In this document: positions 1,351 through 14,415 of the stretch, piece by piece
Numbering within the stretch: the stretch's first letter is position 1
Layout of the letters: the number at the start of each line of letters is the position of its first letter
The notes under the pieces: model-generated
What the model saw: only the letters and a program-made list of their open reading frames with translations
Told to the model about the DNA's origin: nothing
The model's database searches: none
Origin: a virus
Direction: 5' to 3' (one strand)
IMG/VR virus record: IMGVR_UViG_3300045454_000119
Location: 1 to 64,000 of that record
Length of the DNA stretch: 64,000 bases
Position numbers and translations under genes: made by a program

Positions 1351-2136
1351 TTAGAACGGCCATTCATATCCATTGTCATTGAAGTAATTCCACGCCGGCC
1401 TGGTCTTCCACATGCCGTACTTGTATCTCAGCCAGTCCCGCGTTCCGACCGACTGGTTGTTGGCGTCAGGCTTAGCGCCGTGCCAACCCGGGCCGTATTC
1501 CGACCAGCGCACACTGTCCCCCAAACTGTCCGGCTTGACGAAACCTTCGCCACCGAGGAACTTGGCCTGGATGTCACCGAACTTGGGATCCTTTTTCCCC
1601 GTACACAGTCGGAACTCCCATTCCGCCGCATACGAGGTTGAGTAGCGGTTCGTAAACATCCACCCGAAAGCACCGCCAACCGTCGCACCCCCACCGCCAC
1701 CACCGATGAACCCACCCCACGCCCCGGGGGGGCCGCCCATAAACCATCCGACCGCCGTCCCCGCAACCGTTCCAAAGCCGCCGCCGATCCACGCGCCGTT
1801 TTCGACGGCAGCACTGTCCTCCCAGATCTCCACGTTTAGCTTGACGTGGAAAACGCCCTCTGGGTTACCCGTCTCCGGGTCGCGAGAGTACCATGTTTGA
1901 TAATCCGTCTTGTTGTCTCTGATGCCATCTTGCGGGTTGTAATCTCCCTTGTTGAGCCAGGTGTCCAAGAACGGTTCTTCTTTAAAAACAACCTTGTTAT
2001 TATCTACCACCACATCGAATCCGAAGTAGAACAACGCGATGGGCGGGAAGCCTTCATGCCGTGCGGTGTCTCGTTCCAGTCGACCGAACCACTCCACCTG
2101 CTTGCGCTCGTGCTTCGGGCCGACTCGGCGCCCCTT
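1351..2136 (-). other. Variable C-terminal tip of the RHS protein (toxin-domain candidate)
   Basis: This is the last 261 codons of the RHS gene, after the DPTGL boundary. The DNA is more A/T rich than the RHS core, as expected of an exchanged tip module. The encoded segment has a charged N-terminal part (KGRRVGPKHERKQVEWFGRL), a long glycine-zipper stretch at about tip residues 113-161 (GAWIGGG..GTVAGTAVGWFMGG..WGGFIGGGGGG), then an aromatic-rich end (WLRYKYGMWKTRPAWNYF). Glycine zippers occur in membrane-inserting and pore-forming proteins. I see no nuclease, deaminase or other known toxin motif. Confidence 0.6.
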
Positions 2137-5100
2137 CAACCCCGTTGGGTCGACGGTACCAACAGGGTCGTTACCCACGGCCTGGTACAGGTTGGAGACA
2201 CCTCCGGAGAAGCCGATGGGATCCTGGCTGCTCCACCGGCCGAGCGTCGGCGAGTAGTCGCGGTTCCGGAAGTGGTACAGCCCGCTCACTTCGTCGCGCC
2301 GCCCACCCTGGTGTGAGTACACCCACCCGTAATCGCTCGCCCCGTCTGCGTCGTTCGCCCAGTTCGGGTCCAGCATAGTGATTCGGCCGAACGGGTCGTA
2401 GGCGTACCGCTCGACCACTGCCCCGGTCCCGTCGACCAGGGCGGTGACGTTCCAGTTGGCGTCCTGCTGGGCCCACAGCCGCTCTTCCAGGGTGCCGTTG
2501 GCGTCCGTGTCCCGGTCCCGGACCACCAGGGCATCCACGTACACCGGGCTCCAGACGTACCGGGCGGCGGTGTTCGCCCCGACCTTCTCTTCGACCACCT
2601 GCCAGGCGGCCGAGTAGTACAGGTCGGTGGTGGTCCCGCCGGCGGTGGTCTTGATCCGCCGGCCGCCCCCGTCGTAGGCCAGTGTCTCCAGGGTCGTCCC
2701 GCCCGCGTTCTTGACCGTGACCAGCCGGTTCCAGGCGTCGTAGACGAACTGTTTCCCCGTCTCATCCCCGGTCATGTTCCCGTTCGGATCGAACGTCGGG
2801 GCCGTCGCCCCGGCGATGGAGGTGATCTCGTTCTGCCGGTTGGTCGTCCGGGCCTGGGCGGCGCCGTTCGTGGTCAGGCTGTCCCAGTTCCCCGCGGCGT
2901 CGTAGTCCCACCCCTGGGTCCGGCTGGCCGTCCCCGAGATGCCGGTCTTGCCGGCGTTCAGCGTCCCCCGGGCGAACGACGCCACCTGGTTCAAGCCGTC
3001 GTAGGTGTACACCTCCCCGAAGACGGTGTTGACCAGGTTGTCCCGGTACACCCGGTTGGAGTCCCGGTCGTACCCGTACTCGAACCGGTCGGTCGCCACC
3101 CCGGTCGAGGTCTTGACCCACCGCTGGTCCTTGACCCGGTCGAACCGGTCCAGCCCGATGTATTGATCGCCCGCGTCGCCGTTAGACTCTCCCGTCAGCT
3201 TCAAGTAGGTGAAGTCCACCCCCGGCTGGGGGCGGGTGCGGCGGACCACGGTGCCGAGCCCCAGGTAGTCGTACCCCTCGACCGTCCCGGACGTGTCCGA
3301 CAGGGACGATAGCCGGCTGATGGTGTTAGCGAGCCCGGCCGTGTAGTTGCCGGTGAGGACGTACCCGGACGGGTACGTCACCGACGTGGGCCGGCTGTGG
3401 TTGGCCCCGCCCGCCATCTCAGAGTAGGCGTAGCCCACCTTCGGGGTGGACCCGGTCACGGCCCCGCTGTGCGACTGCCAGTCGGCGGTGAGCTGGCCGA
3501 GGCCGTTGTAGTCCCGCTTGACATCGGTCACCACCGCCCCGCCGGACGCCGCAGTGTACGTCGTCACCTTGAACGGGTTCCCCTGCCCGTCGTAGGCCGT
3601 CTCGACCCGCCGCACCGCCCCGTCCACCCCGCTCCCGAGCGTCGTCGCCGCGTCCGCCGTCACCCGCCCGAGCACGTCGTAGGACAGGGTGTGGACCGTC
3701 CCGTTCCGGTCGGTGCTGGTCGCGGTCTGGCCGAGGGCGTTGACCGTCACGCTCTCCTGCTGGGCCGAACTCGCCGCACCGGTCGACGGGTCCGGCCACC
3801 ACGTCTTGCCGGCCACGTCGTTAGAGTCCAGCCCGCTCCCCCCGGCCCCGGACGTGACCCCCCACACCCACTGGGTCGTCTGCACCCCGCCCCCGGTCAG
3901 CCGGGCGGTCAGGCTGGACATCCCGGCCCCGTTGTAGGCGTACTCGGTGGTCTTGTCGTCGGCGTCGGAGACCACCCCGTCGACGTAGTTCTCGACCGTC
4001 TTGGCCGTCCGCCCGAGGGCGTCGTAGGTCGTCCGGGCGACCAGCCCCTTCGGGTCGGTCACGTCCCGCACCCGCCCGGCCGCGTCGTACAGGTAGCTCG
4101 TCACCAGGGCCGTGTCCGATCGGGCCGGGACCGTCCCGGGGCGGGTCCATGCGGTTCCGCCGTTCGTCCCCACGTCCACCGCCGCCGTCGCCCGCCCGCC
4201 GGCGTCGTAGTAGTACCCGGTGTAAGACACCCGCGCCTTGACCCCGGTGGTGGGGGTGCCCAGGGCCCCGGTCGCTGTCTCGTCGTGAAACCGCCGCCGG
4301 CTAGTCACGGTCAGCACCTTCCCGCCGGCGTCGTAGGCCGTCTCCCCCTGCTCCAGCACCGCGTCGCCGGTCACGTCGTCGGCGTGGTCCCACGACCCCG
4401 CTGCCCCGGGGGCCGGATCGCCCCCGCCGTCGGTGGCGTAGGTTACCGTCGCCCGCCCGGCCCCGTCGTAGGCGGTCTTGGTCACCAATCCGCCCGGCGA
4501 TCGGGTCTTGAGGACCCGGCCAGCCTTATCGTACCAGGTGTCGGTTCGGAGCGTGTTGGTACTCGCGGCCCCGCCGGACACCGAGTACATGTCGCTCCGG
4601 TAGACCCGCCCCAGCTCGTCGTAACTGGCCGCAGCCTGGGCTACCAGCCCGGACCCGGGCGCGTCCGGCACCCCGTCCGCGTTGGCGTCCGACGGCGTCA
4701 CCCCGTCCGCGTCGTACGCCCGGGTCTTCGTGACCTGGCCGAGGTTGTCGAGGTCGAGGTAGGTGAGCGGCCTGTTGACGGCCAGCCCGGCCGATGTCTG
4801 TTCGGCAGCTAGCGCCTCGACCCCGGCCTTGGTAGCCACGGCCCGATCCCGCCAGTCGTACCACGTCTGGGTCACCCGAGCGGCCCCGCCCAGCCCGGGG
4901 TACTCCGTCACCTTCGTTCGGGTCCCGTCCCCGACCCCGCCCCCGTCGTACTCGTACTCCCGGACCTTGACCAGGTTCGTCCCGGCCGTGTTGGCCGGTG
5001 ACCAGCTCCCGGTGGTCGGGGTGTCGTCCGTCCCGACCCACTCGCTCACCGCCCGCCCCAGCCCGTCGAACACCGTCCGGCTGATCGTCCCCTGGGGGGT

Positions 5101-8100
5101 GACCGACCGGTTCGGGTAGCCGCCGTGGGTGTACCCGGACTCGGCCCGGTAATAGTGGGTCCCGGACACCGCCCCGCTCAGGACCGCGGCCGTCGAGTAG
5201 GTGAGGCCGGACAGGTTGAAGTAGGCGTCCGAGTACACCCGTTGGCCGGCGCTGTTGACGTGGGACCGGGACAGGGACTGGAGGGACGAAACCGCCTCGG
5301 CCCCGGTCGGCCGGCCGCCGGTCACGGCCGGGGCGGCGGACATGGTCAGGGTCTCGGTGTACCCCCGGGCCCGGTCCTCCCGGGACACGACCGTCGGCCC
5401 GGTCGGGGCGGTCCCCGTCCACCCCGGGTACTGTCGGACCTCGCGGGCCGGGTCGTTGTACACCGTGTAGTCGATCACCCCGTCCGGCCGGGTCGTCTTC
5501 GTCGTCCGCCCGAGCGGGTCGACCTCGTAGGTCGTCGTCAGGTGGAGCCCGGCCGGGCTGGACCACCCGGCCGGTAGCCCGGCAAAGGTGGCGGTCAGGT
5601 CGGTGTCGACATCGGTGATCTGCTTGACCGCCGCCCCGGTGGCCGGGTCGTACTCGGTGTAGCCGATCGACCCGGCGGCGTCCTTCGCCCAGGCCACCCG
5701 CCCGAGGGCGTCGTAGGCGATGACGCTGGAGGTGGCTGTCCCTGGCCCGTTCTGGGCGGTGGTGACGGCCGGCAGGGTGGTGGTGACGGTCGCCGGGAGG
5801 GCGGTCGTGCCCTGCCAGGTGTACGACAGGGTGGTGGTCTGGGCCCCGGTCCCGTTCTCGTTCCGGTACACGGTGGTGGCGGCCGGGACGACCGTCACCC
5901 CGTCCCCGGCCAGGGCGTAGGTGGTGGTCGCCTGCTTGACCCCGGCCCCGCCCGTCCCCCGGTGGAGGAGCGTGTCGGTCAGCCGGGTGTCGACGTTCCC
6001 GCCGGAAGTCGCGGTCGCGTACTGGTACGCGGTCACCAGCCCGGACCCGGCCGCCAGGTGGGTCGCCCCGAGCCCGGTCGCCCCGTACCCGAGCAGGTCG
6101 GCCAGGGCCTCCGCGTGCCCGGTCACCGCCGACGGCCCGGCCTCCGCCACCACCCGCCGGGCCGGGTCCTTCAGCCCGCCGTACGGGTCGAGCCGGTAGT
6201 CCGGGGCGTACTTGCTCGCCCACCGCCACTGCTGGCCGGTGGCCGCGTCCTTGTACACCCGCAGCAAGAGGTCGTTGTTCCGGTTCAGGTAGTAGGTGTT
6301 CTCGTTCCCGTCCGGCAGCGTCTCGACCACCTTCCGGACCCAGGTGTTCGGCAGCTTGGCGAACGGCTCGGCCCGGGCCGCGTACGTGTACGTGTAGGTG
6401 CCCTGGCCGCCGGAGCAGGCCGAGCACCCGTCCCCGGCGGCCACCCGCTTGGTCGCCCGGTTGGACGAGTCGTACTCCAGGTAGGTGTCGGCGTACGGGG
6501 CGACCTGGGCGTCGGACAGGGCGTCCACGTTCGCCCCGAGGGCGGCCACCAGCCGGTCGTACGCGGCCGGGCCGAACGCGTACTTCAGGTTCCCCGGCCC
6601 CATCATCCCGGGGTAGTACCGGTAGTAGCTGGTCTCCACCGGGTTCCCGGCCGCGTCCTTGACCACCGCCAGCTTGACCTGGCCGGACCCCATCCCGGTC
6701 CCGTAGGTGTAGGCCGCCGACCGGACGGTCGACCACGCCCCGGCCCCGACCTTCCGCCGCAGGGTGGCGGTGTTGGCCGTGTAGTCGGTGGCGACCGACT
6801 CGGTCACCGCCGTCGCCCCCGACCCGACCACCGTCTGGACGTCGGTCGGCCGGCCGGAGGAGTCGTACGCGGCCACCGCCGTCTGGGACCCGCCCGGGGC
6901 GGTCACCGCCTTCAGCCGGCCGGCCAGCCCGGCCGAGGTGTTGGCCGAGTTGAAGTCCCAGAAGGTGTACCGGGCCCCCCGGCCGTCGGTCACCTCGACC
7001 ACCCCGTTGGCGGTGTCCTCGGTCAGCCGGTACGGGGCGTCGAACCGGGGGCGGAAGGTCGGGGCCTCGGGGGCCGACCAGTGGTCGAAGTACTTGTCGA
7101 AGAACGCCACCGGGTCGCCCCGGTCGACGACCGCCAGGGACGACCCGTTCGGGGCCCAGCCGTTGGGGTTGACCCGGGCCAGGCTCAGCCCCATCCCGGT
7201 GGTGGTCGTCCCGCCGGTCTGCCCGCCGGTCCCGGAGGCCAGGACGGACGCCCACCCCCACCCCTGGCGGGCCGGGGCCCCGCCGGCCCCCCCGCCCAGG
7301 TCGTCCCGCTTGAGGGTCACCGTCCCGTCCAGGGCGACCCCGCCGGCGGTCGCCGCCCCGGGGCTCGGCCCGACCCCCGCCCCGCCCCCCAGCCACCCGC
7401 CGCACCCGCAGTCCGCCGGGAGCGGGCCGGGGATCAGGGTGGCCTCGGCGAAGGCCTCCGACCCGGCCGTGTAGTTGGCGTCCCCGTTGTACCGGTACCG
7501 CACCCGCATGAACCCGTTGGCGTCGACGGCCAGGGCGGCGGTGACGATCCCGGTGTAGGCGTGCCCGTCCGCCCCCGGCTGGAGGGTGGCCGTCCCGAGC
7601 TTGGTGTTGGTGGCGTAGTCGTAGAAGTCGACCGTCCCGGTCGGGGTCGGGAGGGACGGGTTCTTGCTGTACCCGACCCGGACGGCGATCGGCTGGCCGG
7701 GGGCCAGCGAGGTGACCTGGGCCGCCATCGGGATGTTCATCGGCGGCGGGTCGTTGCTGGCCGCCACCCACACCCCGCCGGTAAAGCCCGGCCCGAACGG
7801 CTGGTACTCGCCCTGGGGGGCCGGGAGCTGGAGCCCGGTCGCCCCGTCGAACACCCGGACGGTGGCGGTCGGCCCGGGGCCGGTGCCCACCACGACATCA
7901 GCATAAGGATCGTCGCTCACATATGCGAGGGCCACCCGCACCCCGCCGGTCGCCTCCGCCCCGAACGGGGCGAAGTCCAGGAGGGTTCCGCCGGTGGCGC
8001 CGGAGAACACCCGCACCTGCGCGGGGTCGCCCGGACCGGTCCCGACGGCCAGGTCGAACGTCCCGTCCGCGTCCGCGTCCCCGGCCAACGCATCAGCACC

Positions 8101-8841
8101 GACCGACACTCCGCCCCGGGTGGCCGGGTCGAAGGCGTAGAAGCTGCCGAGCGGGCCGTCCACCGGGGCCGTGGTGAACAGGTCGTAGACCTTGACGTGC
8201 GGGGCCCCGCCGACCCCGGCGCCCACCGCCAGGTCGGCCAGCCCGTCCCCGGTGACATCCGCCGCGGCCACCGACACCCCGCCGTCGAAGTCCGGGTCGA
8301 AGGCGAAGAAGTCCCGGATCACCGACCCGTCGGCCCCGCTGAACACCCGGACCCGGGGGCCGCCGCCATGCCCGGCCGCGGTGATGACGTCCGGCACCCC
8401 GTCCCCGTCCACCTCCCCGGCCGCCACCGTCAGCCCGCCGGTGAACGTCTCCTCGTACGCCCAGAAGCTGCCGATCGCCCCCGGCACCTGCTCGCCCGTC
8501 TTCCCGTCCAACACCCTAACGTTCGGCCCACCACCCGGGCCGGGGGCGGCCACCAGGTCGGGGTAGCCGTCCCGGGTGAAGTCGGCCGCCGCCACCCGCA
8601 CCCCGCCGGCGAACGCCGTGTCGTACACCGCCCGCTCGAAGTCCAGCTCGCCGGTCTCGGCGTCGTACGCCCGGACCACCGGGGCCCCGCCCTCCCCGGC
8701 CCCGGCGAAAATCACCGGGAGGGGCAACGGCCGCCCGCCGTCCGGGACCACCCGGTCTTCGAGCCCTTCGACCCGCAGGGGAGCGGGTCGGCGCGTGGCA
8801 GTACGGGCCGGCTGGCGGAGCCAGTGGGTGAGACGGTTCAT
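1351..8841 (-). CDS. Giant secreted RHS/YD-repeat protein with FG-GAP N-terminal domain and variable C-terminal tip
   Basis: 2496 residues. Residues 22-34 (LRVEGLEDRVVPDG) carry the LEDRVxP motif found at the N-termini of large exported planctomycete proteins. Residues about 40-370 form repeated FG-GAP/VCBS units with Asp-rich calcium loops (e.g. AAGEVDGDGVPDVITAAG), a beta-propeller fold. An Ig-like segment follows (about 375-470). Hundreds of YD/RHS repeats (YDALGR, YDAAGR, GYTEYDPATG) form the shell that normally encloses a toxin. The RHS-associated core (YDPFGRI...RFR-type YHFRNRDYSPTLGRWSSQDPIG) ends at about residue 2235 with DPTGL, the usual boundary of the tip. The remaining 261 residues are unrelated to the shell. 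The gene is chromosomal in character and leftward, with the two-helix protein gene behind it. Function: inter-bacterial or cell-surface toxin delivery is likely from the family, not shown here. Confidence 0.93.
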   Translation of the reverse strand: MNRLTHWLRQPARTATRRPAPLRVEGLEDRVVPDGGRPLPLPVIFAGAGEGGAPVVRAYDAETGELDFERAVYDTAFAGGVRVAAADFTRDGYPDLVAAPGPGGGPNVRVLDGKTGEQVPGAIGSFWAYEETFTGGLTVAAGEVDGDGVPDVITAAGHGGGPRVRVFSGADGSVIRDFFAFDPDFDGGVSVAAADVTGDGLADLAVGAGVGGAPHVKVYDLFTTAPVDGPLGSFYAFDPATRGGVSVGADALAGDADADGTFDLAVGTGPGDPAQVRVFSGATGGTLLDFAPFGAEATGGVRVALAYVSDDPYADVVVGTGPGPTATVRVFDGATGLQLPAPQGEYQPFGPGFTGGVWVAASNDPPPMNIPMAAQVTSLAPGQPIAVRVGYSKNPSLPTPTGTVDFYDYATNTKLGTATLQPGADGHAYTGIVTAALAVDANGFMRVRYRYNGDANYTAGSEAFAEATLIPGPLPADCGCGGWLGGGAGVGPSPGAATAGGVALDGTVTLKRDDLGGGAGGAPARQGWGWASVLASGTGGQTGGTTTTGMGLSLARVNPNGWAPNGSSLAVVDRGDPVAFFDKYFDHWSAPEAPTFRPRFDAPYRLTEDTANGVVEVTDGRGARYTFWDFNSANTSAGLAGRLKAVTAPGGSQTAVAAYDSSGRPTDVQTVVGSGATAVTESVATDYTANTATLRRKVGAGAWSTVRSAAYTYGTGMGSGQVKLAVVKDAAGNPVETSYYRYYPGMMGPGNLKYAFGPAAYDRLVAALGANVDALSDAQVAPYADTYLEYDSSNRATKRVAAGDGCSACSGGQGTYTYTYAARAEPFAKLPNTWVRKVVETLPDGNENTYYLNRNNDLLLRVYKDAATGQQWRWASKYAPDYRLDPYGGLKDPARRVVAEAGPSAVTGHAEALADLLGYGATGLGATHLAAGSGLVTAYQYATATSGGNVDTRLTDTLLHRGTGGAGVKQATTTYALAGDGVTVVPAATTVYRNENGTGAQTTTLSYTWQGTTALPATVTTTLPAVTTAQNGPGTATSSVIAYDALGRVAWAKDAAGSIGYTEYDPATGAAVKQITDVDTDLTATFAGLPAGWSSPAGLHLTTTYEVDPLGRTTKTTRPDGVIDYTVYNDPAREVRQYPGWTGTAPTGPTVVSREDRARGYTETLTMSAAPAVTGGRPTGAEAVSSLQSLSRSHVNSAGQRVYSDAYFNLSGLTYSTAAVLSGAVSGTHYYRAESGYTHGGYPNRSVTPQGTISRTVFDGLGRAVSEWVGTDDTPTTGSWSPANTAGTNLVKVREYEYDGGGVGDGTRTKVTEYPGLGGAARVTQTWYDWRDRAVATKAGVEALAAEQTSAGLAVNRPLTYLDLDNLGQVTKTRAYDADGVTPSDANADGVPDAPGSGLVAQAAASYDELGRVYRSDMYSVSGGAASTNTLRTDTWYDKAGRVLKTRSPGGLVTKTAYDGAGRATVTYATDGGGDPAPGAAGSWDHADDVTGDAVLEQGETAYDAGGKVLTVTSRRRFHDETATGALGTPTTGVKARVSYTGYYYDAGGRATAAVDVGTNGGTAWTRPGTVPARSDTALVTSYLYDAAGRVRDVTDPKGLVARTTYDALGRTAKTVENYVDGVVSDADDKTTEYAYNGAGMSSLTARLTGGGVQTTQWVWGVTSGAGGSGLDSNDVAGKTWWPDPSTGAASSAQQESVTVNALGQTATSTDRNGTVHTLSYDVLGRVTADAATTLGSGVDGAVRRVETAYDGQGNPFKVTTYTAASGGAVVTDVKRDYNGLGQLTADWQSHSGAVTGSTPKVGYAYSEMAGGANHSRPTSVTYPSGYVLTGNYTAGLANTISRLSSLSDTSGTVEGYDYLGLGTVVRRTRPQPGVDFTYLKLTGESNGDAGDQYIGLDRFDRVKDQRWVKTSTGVATDRFEYGYDRDSNRVYRDNLVNTVFGEVYTYDGLNQVASFARGTLNAGKTGISGTASRTQGWDYDAAGNWDSLTTNGAAQARTTNRQNEITSIAGATAPTFDPNGNMTGDETGKQFVYDAWNRLVTVKNAGGTTLETLAYDGGGRRIKTTAGGTTTDLYYSAAWQVVEEKVGANTAARYVWSPVYVDALVVRDRDTDANGTLEERLWAQQDANWNVTALVDGTGAVVERYAYDPFGRITMLDPNWANDADGASDYGWVYSHQGGRRDEVSGLYHFRNRDYSPTLGRWSSQDPIGFSGGVSNLYQAVGNDPVGTVDPTGLKGRRVGPKHERKQVEWFGRLERDTARHEGFPPIALFYFGFDVVVDNNKVVFKEEPFLDTWLNKGDYNPQDGIRDNKTDYQTWYSRDPETGNPEGVFHVKLNVEIWEDSAAVENGAWIGGGFGTVAGTAVGWFMGGPPGAWGGFIGGGGGGATVGGAFGWMFTNRYSTSYAAEWEFRLCTGKKDPKFGDIQAKFLGGEGFVKPDSLGDSVRWSEYGPGWHGAKPDANNQSVGTRDWLRYKYGMWKTRPAWNYFNDNGYEWPF

Positions 8842-10005: not shown

Positions 10006-10212
10006 TTAAACCGGCTTGCGGGTCGGGGGAAGGTCCGCAAACGGCCCGTAGGGGTCGTTCAGCAGCTCGTCGGCGTCGTCCCGGTCGTCCACCGGCCCGC
10101 AGTCGCAGTGCTCCCGGCAGAGCGGGGCGTGGCGGCGGCAGGTGATGGCGGTGCAGGTGCACAGCCGCTTGTCGGTCAGGTTCCTCGTCTGGCAGCAGTA
10201 GCACGCGGACAT
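10006..10212 (-). CDS. Cysteine-rich small protein, 68 aa
   Basis: The start at MSACYCCQTRN is chosen because an AAAGGAGG ribosome site lies five bases before it; the longer upstream extension lacks coding character. The protein has ten cysteines within its first 45 residues (CYCC..C.C..C..H..C.EHCDC), a pattern fit for zinc binding, followed by an acidic tail (DDRDDADELLNDPYGPF). I do not recognise the family. It probably forms a pair with the proline-rich protein gene 9 bases downstream. Confidence 0.75.
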   Translation of the reverse strand: MSACYCCQTRNLTDKRLCTCTAITCRRHAPLCREHCDCGPVDDRDDADELLNDPYGPFADLPPTRKPV

Positions 10213-10457
10213 GGGGGCCTCCTTTCCCCCGATCAGAGCGCCTCCCGGCCCGTCGCGCGATCTCAGTAGCGGTGAAATCTTTTCCCTCCCGCACGGTCCT
10301 CGTGGGCCGTCGAACTCGTCCCCATGCATGGGTAAAAACCGCGATACGGCCGCCCCGGAAGGGGGTGAGATTATAGTGTTGGAACCCGTCCGACCCGGCC
10401 TTCCGGACTCCGGGAATCTCCGTATCGCATGAGGTGTTCAGTTCGCCCTGGTGGTGG

Positions 10458-10484
10458 AGGCCCCGTGCCCCCGTACGGGGGCCT
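10458..10484 (-). terminator. GC-rich hairpin after the YodL-like gene, possible terminator
   Basis: AGGCCCC (10458-10464) pairs with GGGGCCT (10478-10484), and the loop includes the perfect palindrome CCCCCGTACGGGGG. It follows the end of the leftward gene 10523-10786. There is no clear U-run, so it may end transcription only weakly or protect the 3' end. The rest of the 310-base gap 10213-10522 shows no gene. Confidence 0.4.
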
Positions 10485-10522
10485 GCGGACACAACTTGCA
10501 AGCGTCGACGGGGCCGGGTGGG

Positions 10523-10786
10523 TTACAGCCTCTTCCAGCCGACCGGCTCGCACCGGAAGGCCTCCCCGGCGGGGGACACGACGACATCGCCGATGGAGGT
10601 GCTGCGGGCTTCGGGGTCGATGCACGTCACGCCGGGCTGGAGGGACCAATGCCGGTCGTGGCTGTTGGTCCGTGCGAAGGCGGCTTGCGGGTCGGCGGCG
10701 TCGACCTCGGCAACGAGCCGGTAGCCGTCGGGCCAGCGGGGCGGGGGGAACTGAAAACGCTCTGCGTGGAAGACTCGGTATTTCAT
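10523..10786 (-). CDS. YodL-like small protein, 87 aa
   Basis: Starts MKYRVFHAERFQFP and contains ..ADPQAAFARTNS.. then PEARSTSIGDVVVSPAGEAFRCEPVGWKRL. The combination of an N-terminal YRV strand, a central helix and the late (R)S.S.GDVV motif followed by a C-terminal strand resembles the YodL-like family found in phage and plasmid accessory (often antirestriction-type) clusters. The assignment is from memory of the pattern and is tentative; no function is established. It sits in the leftward operon after the Api92-like gene, separated from it by one of three similar intercistronic hairpins. Confidence 0.7.
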   Translation of the reverse strand: MKYRVFHAERFQFPPPRWPDGYRLVAEVDAADPQAAFARTNSHDRHWSLQPGVTCIDPEARSTSIGDVVVSPAGEAFRCEPVGWKRL

Positions 10787-10804
10787 CTCTGGGAATTCGG
10801 AAGG

Positions 10805-10827
10805 GCCGGGGGCGACTCTCCCCCGGC
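10805..10827 (-). repeat. Intercistronic hairpin, copy A
   Basis: Perfect 8-bp stem (GCCGGGGG/CCCCCGGC) around a seven-base loop that reads AGAGTCG on the transcript strand. It lies between the leftward genes 10847-11383 and 10523-10786. Copies B (11406-11430) and C (13811-13835) share loop and flank design (hairpin followed by CCTTC or CACTTC and then the next ribosome site). Confidence 0.75.
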
Positions 10828-10846
10828 TGGTTAATCTCGGAAGGGG

Positions 10847-11383
10847 TCAGCCGCCGCGGTTCCCGAAGTAGGGGCCGCTCTCGTCGAACGTGACTTCCCC
10901 GCCCTCGCAGCGGAGCATGCCGTTGTAGGCACACCCGCACTCGAAGTAGCGGAGGGTAAGGGTCAGGTCCGGGAACATCTCGGCGGCCCGCTTAATGACC
11001 GGCTCCGGGGGGCTCCAGGCGGTCTCGAAGTGCAGGTCCTGGGAAACCTCCCTGTCCCACTCGCTCCGCTGGCCGATTTGCACCCGGCAGGCGTTCCACT
11101 TGGTGCCCCAGTTCTCGACGCACCAGTCGTAGCCGCCGGAGTTGAACCCGTCCGGCGGGATGGGTACGGTTTCCCGCTCGGCGGGTGTCAGGGAGTTGAA
11201 GCGGTCGTAGAACGCTTCCCGCTCCCGGTCCATCTGCTCCCACTTCTCCGGGTAGGGGATGAAGCGGTTGAAGTCGAACGGGGTTTCCTCGCCGTCGGGG
11301 GTCCCCTTCGCGTGCTCCAGAAACGCCGTCACCTTGTCGGCCGGCCCTTCGACGGTCAAATCGCATTCACACCAATTCGGCAT
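10847..11383 (-). CDS. Api92-like/DUF1281 ferredoxin-fold protein, 178 aa
   Basis: Begins MPNWCECDLTVEG, the signature of the DUF1281/Api92-like family (MPNWC.N.L...G), which has a ferredoxin-like fold. Other family-like features are FDFNRFIPYPE at 36-46, YDWCVENWGTKWNA at about 84-97 and FETAWSPPEPVIKRAAEMFPDL at about 118-140. The family is common on phages, plasmids and integrated elements; its function is unknown. A good GGAGGAAT ribosome site precedes the ATG. It follows the DUF932 gene in the same leftward run, with hairpin copy B between them. Confidence 0.88.
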   Translation of the reverse strand: MPNWCECDLTVEGPADKVTAFLEHAKGTPDGEETPFDFNRFIPYPEKWEQMDREREAFYDRFNSLTPAERETVPIPPDGFNSGGYDWCVENWGTKWNACRVQIGQRSEWDREVSQDLHFETAWSPPEPVIKRAAEMFPDLTLTLRYFECGCAYNGMLRCEGGEVTFDESGPYFGNRGG

Positions 11384-11405
11384 ATTCCTCCGGATAAACA
11401 GAAGG

Positions 11406-11430
11406 GCCGGGCGGCCACTCTCCGCCCGGC
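11406..11430 (-). repeat. Intercistronic hairpin, copy B
   Basis: Perfect 9-bp stem (GCCGGGCGG/CCGCCCGGC) with loop AGAGTGG on the transcript strand, placed between the DUF932 stop codon and the Api92-like start. Same architecture as copies A and C. Confidence 0.75.
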
Positions 11431-11446
11431 TCGTTGTCGTCTGGCG

Positions 11447-12427
11447 TTAAGCGGCTAAGGCGATGTCGTAGGCCCGCCGTTTAATCCGCTCGCCGTCCCC
11501 GAACCAGGCGGAATCCAGCCGCGTTTCGGCGTCGTCCTTCCGCCTACCCCGGAGGTGGTCGACCCAATCGGTGACCGCGTTGTAGGCCCCCCAGTAGGTG
11601 CCGTGGACGCCGTTCAGCATCGCCCCCGGTGCGGCGTAGTACGCCGACAGGATCTGCGGGTAGGCCCTGGGCTTCTTCCCGTGGGTGTAGGTGTCCGGGG
11701 CGATGTCGAGTACGGCGTCGACGTACCGTTGCAACCCGTCGATGGGCAAGGCCTTGGCGGCCATCGTGCGGAAGTCGGCGACGGTGGCCGTGAAGGTCTT
11801 CGCGGCCATGTCGACGGTTTTCTGAACGAGGGAAAGGCCCTGTTCTACCCCCGAGGTGTGCCGAACCCGGATGCAGTCCTCTAACCCGGCGTCGGCTCTG
11901 CGGTCGGCCCGTGAGAGGGTGTTCCAGCAAACGACCCGGATGGTGGTGAACTGGCACCGCACCGACTGGCTGCCGTCGTGGGCGTTTGAGAGGAGGAAGT
12001 ACCCCCGGACGGAATCGCGGTCCACTACGTCGGCGATGGCGTCCTTGAGCCGTGCCAGAACCCAAACCCGCTTGCCGGCTTTGAGGCTCCCGGCTGCCTC
12101 CAACTCGCAAAGGCCGGAGTCCAGGAACGGCTGGAAGAAGTCGAAGGCGACGACGTTTTGCAGCGGCTTGTACCCGTTGCCGACGACGCCGAGGATGCTC
12201 CGGTCAGAACTCCGGACAACGGCATGGTGGGTGTCGACGCCGATGGTGCTGATGGTCTCTCGGTCGCCGTCGAACATCGCCGCGTAGATGTTCTCCAACG
12301 ACACCGACCAATCGAGGCCAGCGGCCCGGATGGCGTCCGGTATCGAGGGTGACTCTGGGAGCACAACCCCGAGCTTGTGCCAAGCCGGGGTGCGGGTGAA
12401 GAAGGCGGTTTCTATCTCGTGTGCCAT
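11447..12427 (-). CDS. DUF932 phage/plasmid-like protein, 326 aa
   Basis: Matches the DUF932 (phage/plasmid-like TIGR03299) family across its length: N-terminal AFFTRTPAWHKLG, central GVVGNGYKPLQN..AFDFFQPFLD, ..GSLKAGKRVWVLARL.., and the diagnostic QFTTIRVVCWNTLSRA segment near residues 160-176, then H..G......Q.....A (RHTSGVEQGLSLVQKTVDMA). The family is carried widely by phages and plasmids and its biochemical role is unknown. A promoter with TTGACTC at -35 ends about 58 bases before its ATG, so it heads a leftward transcript that probably continues through the Api92-like and YodL-like genes. A second, distinct DUF932 member is at 58549. Confidence 0.9.
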   Translation of the reverse strand: MAHEIETAFFTRTPAWHKLGVVLPESPSIPDAIRAAGLDWSVSLENIYAAMFDGDRETISTIGVDTHHAVVRSSDRSILGVVGNGYKPLQNVVAFDFFQPFLDSGLCELEAAGSLKAGKRVWVLARLKDAIADVVDRDSVRGYFLLSNAHDGSQSVRCQFTTIRVVCWNTLSRADRRADAGLEDCIRVRHTSGVEQGLSLVQKTVDMAAKTFTATVADFRTMAAKALPIDGLQRYVDAVLDIAPDTYTHGKKPRAYPQILSAYYAAPGAMLNGVHGTYWGAYNAVTDWVDHLRGRRKDDAETRLDSAWFGDGERIKRRAYDIALAA

Positions 12428-12484
12428 TGGGTCTTCTCCTGATGCGGGGTCGGTTTCACAGGTCCGACCTCTGTTAACGGGGCC

Positions 12485-12514
12485 AGATTACTACGGAATC
12501 CAAAGACGAGTCAA
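12485..12514 (-). promoter_or_regulatory. Promoter of the DUF932 transcript (TTGACTC type)
   Basis: Reading leftward: TTGACT (12514-12509), 18-base spacer, TAATCT (12490-12485). The -35 is embedded in a short inverted repeat (CAAAGA/TCTTTG arms at 12501-12506 and 12517-12522) that is repeated exactly in arm sequence at 14251-14272, so a repressor site is likely. Confidence 0.65.
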
Positions 12515-12650
12515 CATCTTTGAGACGTAAATCAGAAGAAATAACCGGGGTTGAGCGGCAGTAGAACGGCGTTTGCCGCCCCTCCGCTTAACTGCTAACT
12601 CGGCGCTTCGCCGGATGACGGAAATGGCGGGGAGCGGGGGAACGCCGGGG

Positions 12651-12737
12651 CCTGACTGCCTCCGGCCGGGTGGCCGGCGAGGGAATTGGGGGAGGGGTGG
12701 TGCCGGAATCCCGGCCACCCGGCCGGAGGCAGTCAGG
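12651..12737 (-). repeat. Perfect 27-bp inverted repeat (large stem-loop) at the 3' end of the ASCH gene
   Basis: Positions 12651-12677 and 12711-12737 are exact reverse complements, leaving a 33-base loop. The right arm contains the stop codon of the leftward ASCH gene (12733-12735), so the stem forms in its 3' end. Placement fits a transcription terminator or 3'-end stabiliser, but there is no U-run after it, and 27 perfect pairs are far more than a terminator needs. The stretch between it and the next promoter (12515-12650) shows no gene. Confidence 0.75.
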
Positions 12738-13344
12738 AGATGCGTTTGAACTCGATGACCCAGACCCACGGGTTCTCGGACCAGGTGTAGCCCGGCCGCT
12801 TGCCGTTAATGCGGTCCCAGACCTCCGCGAAACCTTGCCGGTACGTCTCGACCTTGGCGGCGAGGGCGCTCGGGTAAACCCGCCGCTCATAGGCCACCGG
12901 GGCTCCTTCTGCCCGCGCGTCCGCCTCGCTGATATCCCCCACCCGCTCGACCCGCACACCGGTAATCTCCAGCGTGCTGCGGCTGGCCCAGCGGGGCATG
13001 TGGATGGACGGCTTCCAGGGAGCGCAGCGGCTTCTGTCCCAGGTCGCTCGGTAACGCACCCCGTGGTGGGGCGCGGCCGGCTGAGAAACGGATGACTTCG
13101 TCGGGTCGAAACCCTCGGGGTATTTCTCGCAGCCAGCGGAGCACGGGACGAGTGCGAACGCCTCCCGCACCCAGAGCCAATCGCCGGGCTGGCCGTGGGG
13201 GCAGCGCTCATCCTCGTTGAGGATTGGTACTCCAATCCAGGAAGTCATCGGCAACGGCGTGATGACCCGCCGCGTCTGCGACTTCCGCCCGTCGAGGATC
13301 GCCCGGACCATCTCGTCGCTGAAGAGAATCGGCCGCTCCTTCAT
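12733..13344 (-). CDS. ASCH-domain protein, 203 aa
   Basis: Begins MKERPILFSDEMVRAILDGRKSQTRRVI, the typical opening of phage-borne ASCH (PUA-like, RNA-binding fold) proteins, followed by GQPGDWLWVREAF, a MPRWASRSTLEITGVRVERVGDISEADARAEG core and the WVWVIEFKRI C-terminal strand. The family is thought to bind RNA or modified nucleosides. This start is chosen over an upstream extension because it overlaps the previous stop by four bases (ATGA coupling). Last gene of the leftward run that starts at 14183. Confidence 0.9.
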   Translation of the reverse strand: MKERPILFSDEMVRAILDGRKSQTRRVITPLPMTSWIGVPILNEDERCPHGQPGDWLWVREAFALVPCSAGCEKYPEGFDPTKSSVSQPAAPHHGVRYRATWDRSRCAPWKPSIHMPRWASRSTLEITGVRVERVGDISEADARAEGAPVAYERRVYPSALAAKVETYRQGFAEVWDRINGKRPGYTWSENPWVWVIEFKRIS

Positions 13345-13793
13345 GGCTTGCCCGCGTCGGACAGCGCTTGGGCGAACCCGGTAAGCCTCTGCTTCAGCCG
13401 TGCTTCCTCTTTCGGCCCGTGGTCCTCCCACGACACCACGCACACCTCCGGCGGCTCGGCGTTGCTCCAGCGGGGGACGAAGTTCTCTCGGGCCGTCTTT
13501 ACCGCCTCGTCGTAGGTGTCGGCGAACACCTCCAGGCTGCCGCCGAAGTCGACCTCGTAGGACAGGGTGACGGTCCAGAGCCTCAGCCCGGAGCCGGGGA
13601 TGCCACCCGGCCGGTTCCGGTCCTCGGCCACCTCCAGGGCCGCGTGGAAGTCGATGCCGAACCGCTGGCACAGGTCGATCACGTCGGCCAGGAACTGCGG
13701 GACGTCGACGTGGGCCATCTCGGAGGCGTAGTGCTCGAGCAGGAAGCCGCCGAGGATGACGGCGGCGGGGAGCTTGGTTTCGTCTGAGGTCAT
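13341..13793 (-). CDS. Hypothetical phage-type protein, 150 aa
   Basis: Soluble protein with an N-terminal helical part (TKLPAAVILGGFLLEHYASEMAHVDVPQFLADVIDLCQRFGID) and a beta-rich middle (WTVTLSYEVDFGGSLEVFADTYDEAVKTARENF) that looks like a small alpha/beta domain in which a strand is followed by DEA..AR. No named family. Start MTSDETKL is chosen because the upstream extension overlaps hairpin copy C. Translationally coupled to the ASCH gene. Confidence 0.75.
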   Translation of the reverse strand: MTSDETKLPAAVILGGFLLEHYASEMAHVDVPQFLADVIDLCQRFGIDFHAALEVAEDRNRPGGIPGSGLRLWTVTLSYEVDFGGSLEVFADTYDEAVKTARENFVPRWSNAEPPEVCVVSWEDHGPKEEARLKQRLTGFAQALSDAGKP

Positions 13794-13810
13794 ACGGATA
13801 GTCTGAAGTG

Positions 13811-13835
13811 CCCGCCGGGCCACTCTCCCGGCGGG
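13811..13835 (-). repeat. Intercistronic hairpin, copy C
   Basis: Perfect 9-bp stem (CCCGCCGGG/CCCGGCGGG) with loop AGAGTGG on the transcript strand, between the leftward genes 13840-14052 and 13341-13793. Loop length and sequence match copies A and B while the stem sequences differ by paired changes, which points to selection on the RNA shape and loop. Confidence 0.75.
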
Positions 13836-13839
13836 GCGG

Positions 13840-14052
13840 TTAACCGGCGGCGGACCACTCGGCCAGCCAGCGGCAGGCGTCGGTCCCGTCGATGTGCATC
13901 GGCTCGTCGTCCGGCCCCTGGGCCAGGGCCAGCCCGACGGCGCACGCCTCGCAGCTGCGGGAGATGTTCTCCGGCGACCCCGGGAACCGGACCCAGTGCC
14001 ACTCCTCGCCGTCCGGGACGGCCTTGGTGCAGTACGCGCAGGTGCGGTCCAT
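13840..14052 (-). CDS. Small zinc-ribbon-like protein, 70 aa
   Basis: MDRTCAYCTKAVPDGEEWHWVRFPGSPENISRSCEACAVGLAL carries two CxxC pairs about 30 residues apart, the usual layout of a one-zinc ribbon. The C-terminal half is acidic with Trp (DACRWLAEWSAAG). The start is set by GGGAGGTGAGC before the ATG, only two bases after the stop of the upstream membrane-protein gene. Function unknown. Confidence 0.75.
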   Translation of the reverse strand: MDRTCAYCTKAVPDGEEWHWVRFPGSPENISRSCEACAVGLALAQGPDDEPMHIDGTDACRWLAEWSAAG

Positions 14053-14054
14053 GC

Positions 14055-14183
14055 TCACCTCCCGACCTGCACAACGATGGCCAGGAGCAGGTCCAGGACC
14101 GCGAGCACAAGGGCGGCGACGCAGACGACGGTCAGGGCCTTGTCGGTGGCGAGGGAGCCGGGCGGGATGTGTTTCTGAGTCAT
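14055..14183 (-). CDS. Single-span membrane peptide, 42 aa
   Basis: A 42-residue frame (MTQKHIPPGSLATDK, then ALTVVCVAALVLAVLDLLLAI, then VVQVGR) with one strong transmembrane helix. It has a GAGGAAC ribosome site, follows a TTGACTC-type promoter, and its stop codon lies two bases before the next start, so it is the first gene of this leftward transcript. No family recognised. Confidence 0.65.
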   Translation of the reverse strand: MTQKHIPPGSLATDKALTVVCVAALVLAVLDLLLAIVVQVGR

Positions 14184-14235
14184 GTTCCTCCGAATGCGTG
14201 CGGCGTTCACAGGCGCCGCGTGGTTGACGAGGGGC

Positions 14236-14264: not shown

Positions 14265-14415
14265 CGTCTTTGGGGGTAGAAAAACCGCCTCTTTCCTGTG
14301 AGCCGGGAGAGGCGGAAACCGGCTGCCCTTGGGGGCGATTCGCATCCGAAGAGGCCGTTCGGCCACTCGAAATCCTGTTGTGTACTGGCGTTTACATATT
14401 TGGTAAATTCCGATC

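Follow-up and report, generated by a model that had tools for sequence, protein, structure and literature searches.

Hairpins with a common AGAGUNG loop between early genes of a Gemmata-type phage and its relatives are candidate translation-initiation elements

Hairpins with an AGAGTNG loop (AGAGUNG in the transcript) and covarying stems are located at a nearly fixed distance upstream of genes in a phage early operon and in related loci, and most of these genes have no Shine-Dalgarno (SD) sequence. From the start-codon placement and the missing SD sequences, we infer that the hairpin acts in the translation initiation of the downstream gene. The reading that we favour, with a confidence somewhat short of even, is that the hairpin is a cis-acting translation-initiation element that stands in for the SD sequence, possibly together with a factor that binds its loop.

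The stretch of DNA analysed (the window) is 64 kb long and is part of a 67,172-bp IMG/VR virus record. Its proteins include a large terminase, a portal protein, head proteins and lambda-J-like tail proteins, a helicase, a primase, a tyrosine-integrase-like protein and an HTH regulator, and because of this gene set the phage is most likely a temperate siphovirus. The largest phage protein is a 2496-aa RHS-repeat/FG-GAP protein (1351-8841, minus strand), which is related to a host gene region in L259. Close relatives of the early region are the IMG/VR contig 3300049486_000044 (L180/L264) and Gemmataceae MAGs (L214/L262 and L217). A 68-aa cysteine-rich protein (10006-10212, minus strand) adjoins the operon in all four phage-like contigs, and is also found at other Gemmataceae loci, there without the hairpins. 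A perfect 27-bp inverted repeat with a 33-nt spacer (12651-12737) is located at the end of the gene at 12733-13344.

The three hairpins of the window are all on the minus strand, in gaps separating leftward genes. Hairpin 1 (10805-10827) has an 8-bp stem (GCCGGGGG-AGAGTCG-CCCCCGGC) and is followed by an 18-nt spacer without an SD sequence (CCTTCCGAATTCCCAGAG; 10784-10804 with the ATG) and an 87-aa gene (10523-10786, minus strand). Hairpin 2 (11406-11430) has a 9-bp stem (GCCGGGCGG-AGAGTGG-CCGCCCGGC) and is located after the DUF932 gene (PF06067; 11447-12427, minus strand), whose own start has an SD sequence and a leader hairpin, and before an Api92-like DUF1281_C gene (PF18406, E 7e-11; 10847-11383, minus strand), from which it is separated by a 22-nt spacer that contains GGAGG at 11387-11391 (11381-11405 with the ATG). 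Hairpin 3 (13811-13835) has a 9-bp stem (CCCGCCGGG-AGAGTGG-CCCGGCGGG) and an orthologous copy in L262 at 4320. It is located after a small cysteine-containing gene (13840-14055, minus strand), which is conserved in L262, and is followed by a 17-nt spacer without an SD sequence (CACTTCAGACTATCCGT; 13791-13810 with the ATG) and a 150-aa gene (13341-13793, minus strand), which is conserved in L262 and L264. When re-checked, the coordinates, stems and loops of the three hairpins match exactly those given in an earlier note on this DNA. That note also described each hairpin as followed by a ribosome site, which is true for only one of the three (11406-11430, GGAGG): the SD duplex is -9.5 kcal/mol after hairpin 2, but -2.1 and +0.1 kcal/mol after hairpins 1 and 3 respectively. 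Across the whole 64 kb, no hairpin other than these three combines a 7-nt loop with a stem of 8 bp or longer. The AGAGTSG sequence is seen five times in the window against 18 expected, and three of the five are inside the hairpins. Only about 0.0008 AGAGTSG hairpins are expected in the window by chance, and block shuffles never yielded two hairpins with similar loops.

A search for the stem-loop in other Gemmata phages and chromosomes, which the earlier note had proposed, yields by pattern scans ten further copies with stems of 8-10 bp in four additional contigs, one from an IMG/VR virus and three from Gemmataceae genomes: two in L180/L264 (loop AGAGTTG), five in L214/L262, two in L217, one of them with a single mismatch, and one in L223 (a Fimbriiglobus MAG). 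The total is thus 13 copies in five contigs, a small sample in which the copies are partly related by descent and the MAG contigs, which are short, may contain errors. A match in L203 was discarded, because it has no extended stem, and searches with the DUF1281 protein, the MSACYCC protein and the DnaJ-like protein gave no additional hairpin contigs. All copies are on the coding strand, with a stop codon on one side and the next start codon on the other. The loop is AGAGTNG in 13 of 13 copies, and the core GGAGAGTNGCC is invariant. Compensated double changes are found in six of the nine stem pairs across the 13 copies, and the covariation score is 0.41, compared with 0.09 for shuffled and at most 0.15 for slid controls. 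At the orthologous site after the DUF932 gene, the product of which is 81% identical between the window and L264, the stem reads GCCGGGCGG in the window, whereas L264 has the fully compensated GCCCCCGGG, and the loop is kept. Because these stems differ fully yet stay compensated, selection preserves the pairing and the loop and leaves the stem sequence free, as is expected of RNA, unlike a duplex DNA site. The constant loop and the covarying stem thus bear out the proposal that the hairpin is a selected RNA element.

The compensated changes also bear on a very improbable explanation, namely that the hairpin is a linker or cassette boundary and that the hairpin-spacer-start unit is kept through the exchange of cassettes by recombination there. 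The gene content between the hairpins does turn over strongly among the relatives. However, homologous recombination would conserve the stem sequence, whereas the stems change with compensation, and the GTT core of an integron-type attC site is not present on the 3' side. An invariant loop on variable stems is, on the other hand, the hallmark of a hairpin that is read by a protein. A translational operator of the gp43 kind is the nearest rival to SD replacement, although we regard it as unlikely. In such an operator, a phage or host protein would read the AGAGUNG loop by the ribosome footprint and turn the operon's genes off (or on) as a group, in the way that the DNA polymerase of T4 and RB69 acts on its own mRNA. 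The position of the hairpin just upstream of the start codon fits this explanation. The gp43 operators of T4 and RB69 likewise have the loop and top bases in common, while their hairpin lengths differ (PMC3014915).

The hairpin is placed with respect to the start codon and not the stop codon. The distance from the end of the loop to the start codon is 26 nt in eight of the 13 copies and 28, 28, 28, 29 and 31 nt in the others (sd 1.6), whereas the gap that separates the stem from the upstream stop codon measures between 4 and 19 nt (sd 5.0). The difference in variance gives a Levene P of 0.0009, which is optimistic since some copies share descent. In addition, hairpin 2 and one L217 hairpin follow unrelated genes and precede homologous DUF1281-like starts, both with an SD sequence and a longer spacer. 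Because the start spacing is nearly fixed and the stop spacing is variable, and because the homologous DUF1281-like starts keep the hairpin behind unrelated genes, the hairpin belongs to the downstream gene rather than to the upstream one. In L264, no hairpin precedes the homologue of the 150-aa gene that follows hairpin 3, and the start of this homologue appears to overlap the upstream stop, as if coupling substitutes for the hairpin.

This placement argues against two explanations in which the hairpin serves the upstream gene or the transcript end. One is that the hairpin is a processing or stability signal. The transcript would be cut behind the hairpin, which would then cap the upstream cistron at its 3' end, and the downstream cistron would keep a short leader. 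Intercistronic processing is common in phages, the hairpins are located between cistrons, and a pyrimidine-rich CCTTC or CATTTC sequence is conserved 3' of the stem. Nevertheless, processing is improbable, because it is the distance to the downstream start that is fixed and the distance from the upstream stop that varies, because processing leaves the SD deficit unexplained, and because a stem of 8-9 bp is short for RNase III. The other, which is more improbable still, is that the hairpins are weak intrinsic terminators that give a polarity gradient along the operon. The stems are GC-rich, stable (mostly -18 to -21 kcal/mol) and located after stop codons, and one of the three window hairpins passes a lax terminator rule. 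However, the 8 nt after the stem contain only 2-5 T (mean 3.1) and mostly begin with CC or CA, while the same phage has a clear TTTTT terminator at 14280-14315 and several host terminators have T-runs. Termination, moreover, needs neither an invariant loop nor a fixed start spacing. With no U-tract, and with a position that is not set by the upstream gene, the hairpin is less likely to act in processing or weak termination. The hairpins have no T-run directly after the stem, in agreement with the earlier claim that they are not plain terminators.

The SD sequence, taken as absent when the duplex is weaker than -4 kcal/mol, is missing in 10 of the 13 genes downstream of a hairpin, compared with 13 of 45 other genes of the window, where start codons are predicted and those of the comparison genes were picked mechanically. 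The corresponding P values are 0.003 (Fisher) and 0.001 (Mann-Whitney), both of which are optimistic, because some of the 13 copies are related by descent. The remaining three downstream genes have an SD sequence, and the anti-SD sequence of the host-type 16S rRNA is the canonical CCUCC. An operator leaves the missing SD sequences unexplained. It also has no candidate repressor, since none of the window proteins tested has a match in all five contigs, which are partial. For the same reason, the reader of the loop under SD replacement is more likely a host factor or the ribosome itself than a phage protein. The earlier note regarded the hairpin as an element that is recognised by a protein or used for processing. 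The RNA element itself stands, but the placement and the SD deficit indicate translation initiation, which was not considered there.

In the SD-replacement reading, the hairpin folds in the gap between two genes of the early operon, with its loop 26 nt (26-31) ahead of the start, in the initiation region of the next gene. The hairpin would then dock on the mRNA-exit side of the 30S subunit, either by itself or with the help of a factor that recognises the AGAGUNG loop, and the docked hairpin would do the job of the missing SD sequence. A general form of this proposal is more tentative: a family of phage hairpins would use the AGAGUNG loop, placed about 26 nt ahead of the start, to bring the 30S subunit to operon-internal genes, either by direct contact or by way of a host factor, and this would be a structured, SD-independent mode of initiation in bacteria. 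A strong GC hairpin close to a start codon is usually inhibitory, which counts against SD replacement. Pairing between the loop and 16S rRNA was rejected as being at chance level: the single 6-base match, where about 0.4 are expected, is far from the mRNA exit, and nothing else is convincing. A start codon within the loop (the GTG of AGAGTGG) was ruled out, because the N position is variable and some copies have a spacing that is out of frame. Geometry ruled out a pseudoknot between the loop and the downstream CCTTC, since a 2-nt connector would have to span the 8-bp stem. The known ways of initiating without an SD sequence depend on unstructured starts, S1 or leaderless mRNA (PMC5397173), and we found no precedent in the open-access literature for a phage hairpin that replaces the SD sequence. 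If SD replacement is correct, a conserved stem-loop, set at a fixed distance from starts that lack an SD sequence, would offer a structured and testable alternative to these modes. If the hairpin is instead an operator, it would mark a translation-controlled phage regulon in Planctomycetota, the phages of which are little studied.

The hairpin is not a general feature of the hosts. A covariance model finds it in three of 95 Gemmataceae genomes and in one of 392 genomes drawn evenly across Planctomycetota, in searches that scored only the best first-look candidates and may have lost weak copies to the first-look filters. The matches are always in a phage-like locus or, in the Fimbriiglobus MAG, on a contig that encodes a tyrosine recombinase, about 1 kb from a DUF932 gene there. 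A direct pattern search of seven genomes or records gives phage and mobile-element sites, plus three host hits without a matching second stem arm. Among 337 genes on 400 kb of a Gemmataceae chromosome, there is no peak of hairpins 15-24 nt before start codons. Thus, in these searches host chromosomes carry the motif only within such phages and mobile elements, and host-wide use of the hairpin is ruled out by its rarity and its constant association with mobile elements. A Gemmata-type host, as assigned in the earlier note, is supported.

Other RNA elements are present near the hairpins. A three-way junction at the 3' end of the operon (10459-10515, minus strand) shows compensated changes in six loci, with covarying helices and the conserved joining sequence GACGCT..GTGTCCGATG, and has no Rfam match. 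Its other sites are L262 7213-7275, L217 3530-3595, L264 2045-2105, L287 8787-8850, L288 and G013:C3:1038753-1038837. A search with a model of the junction yields four Gemmatales genomes, in two of which it is directly behind a DUF932 gene. In the Gemmata-type chromosomes L287 (8753-8775) and L288, a hairpin that shares the GCCGGGGG stem but has the loop TGRTGAG stands behind DUF932; no gene comes after it, and the three-way junction is next. Leader hairpins with different stems and CC(T)GTGAA in their loops, which share CCTGTGAA, are found in the window at 12448-12469 and 14200-14219 (minus strand) and in the leader of L264 DUF932, 16-20 nt before SD-bearing first genes of the operon. Each is downstream of a TTGAC promoter-like segment, which is repeated in the window as TTGACTCGTCTTTG. 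The repeats are at 12498 and 14248, and the genes after them have both an SD sequence and a leader hairpin.

Comparison with known element classes gives partial resemblances. A search of Rfam 15 gives no match in the window above the gathering threshold, and relaxed thresholds give nothing convincing in window positions 10400-14100, L262, L264 or L217. N4-type vRNAP promoters are similar in that several hairpins with alike loops and different stems are located ahead of early genes, but differ in loop length and spacing. Such promoters were rejected as unlikely, because no N4-type or other phage RNA polymerase is matched among the window proteins scanned and the giant protein is of the RHS/FG-GAP type. 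The lambda-type boxB of nut sites is a purine-rich pentaloop in leader RNA, whereas the present hairpins have a 7-nt AGAGUNG loop, are located between cistrons and number up to five per operon. Rho-independent terminators are likewise GC stem-loops after a stop codon, but the hairpin family has no proper U-tract, has an invariant loop and is placed by the next start codon. The split initiation regions of T4 genes 25 and 38 also contain a hairpin, the stability of which matters (PMC3014915), but it lies between a real SD sequence and the AUG and shortens their spacing. This arrangement was rejected for the present family, in which there is no SD sequence 5' of the hairpin (the flank is of the AAC-GA type) and 17-22 nt follow the stem. 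The T4/RB69 gene 43 operator is likewise a phage mRNA hairpin shortly before a start codon, with a conserved loop in hairpins that otherwise differ (PMC3014915), and the window hairpins share this conserved-loop arrangement upstream of the start. However, the gene 43 operator regulates a single gene, whose ribosome binding site it overlaps, whereas the family described here is present in up to five copies per operon, mostly before genes without an SD sequence, and has an unrelated loop sequence.
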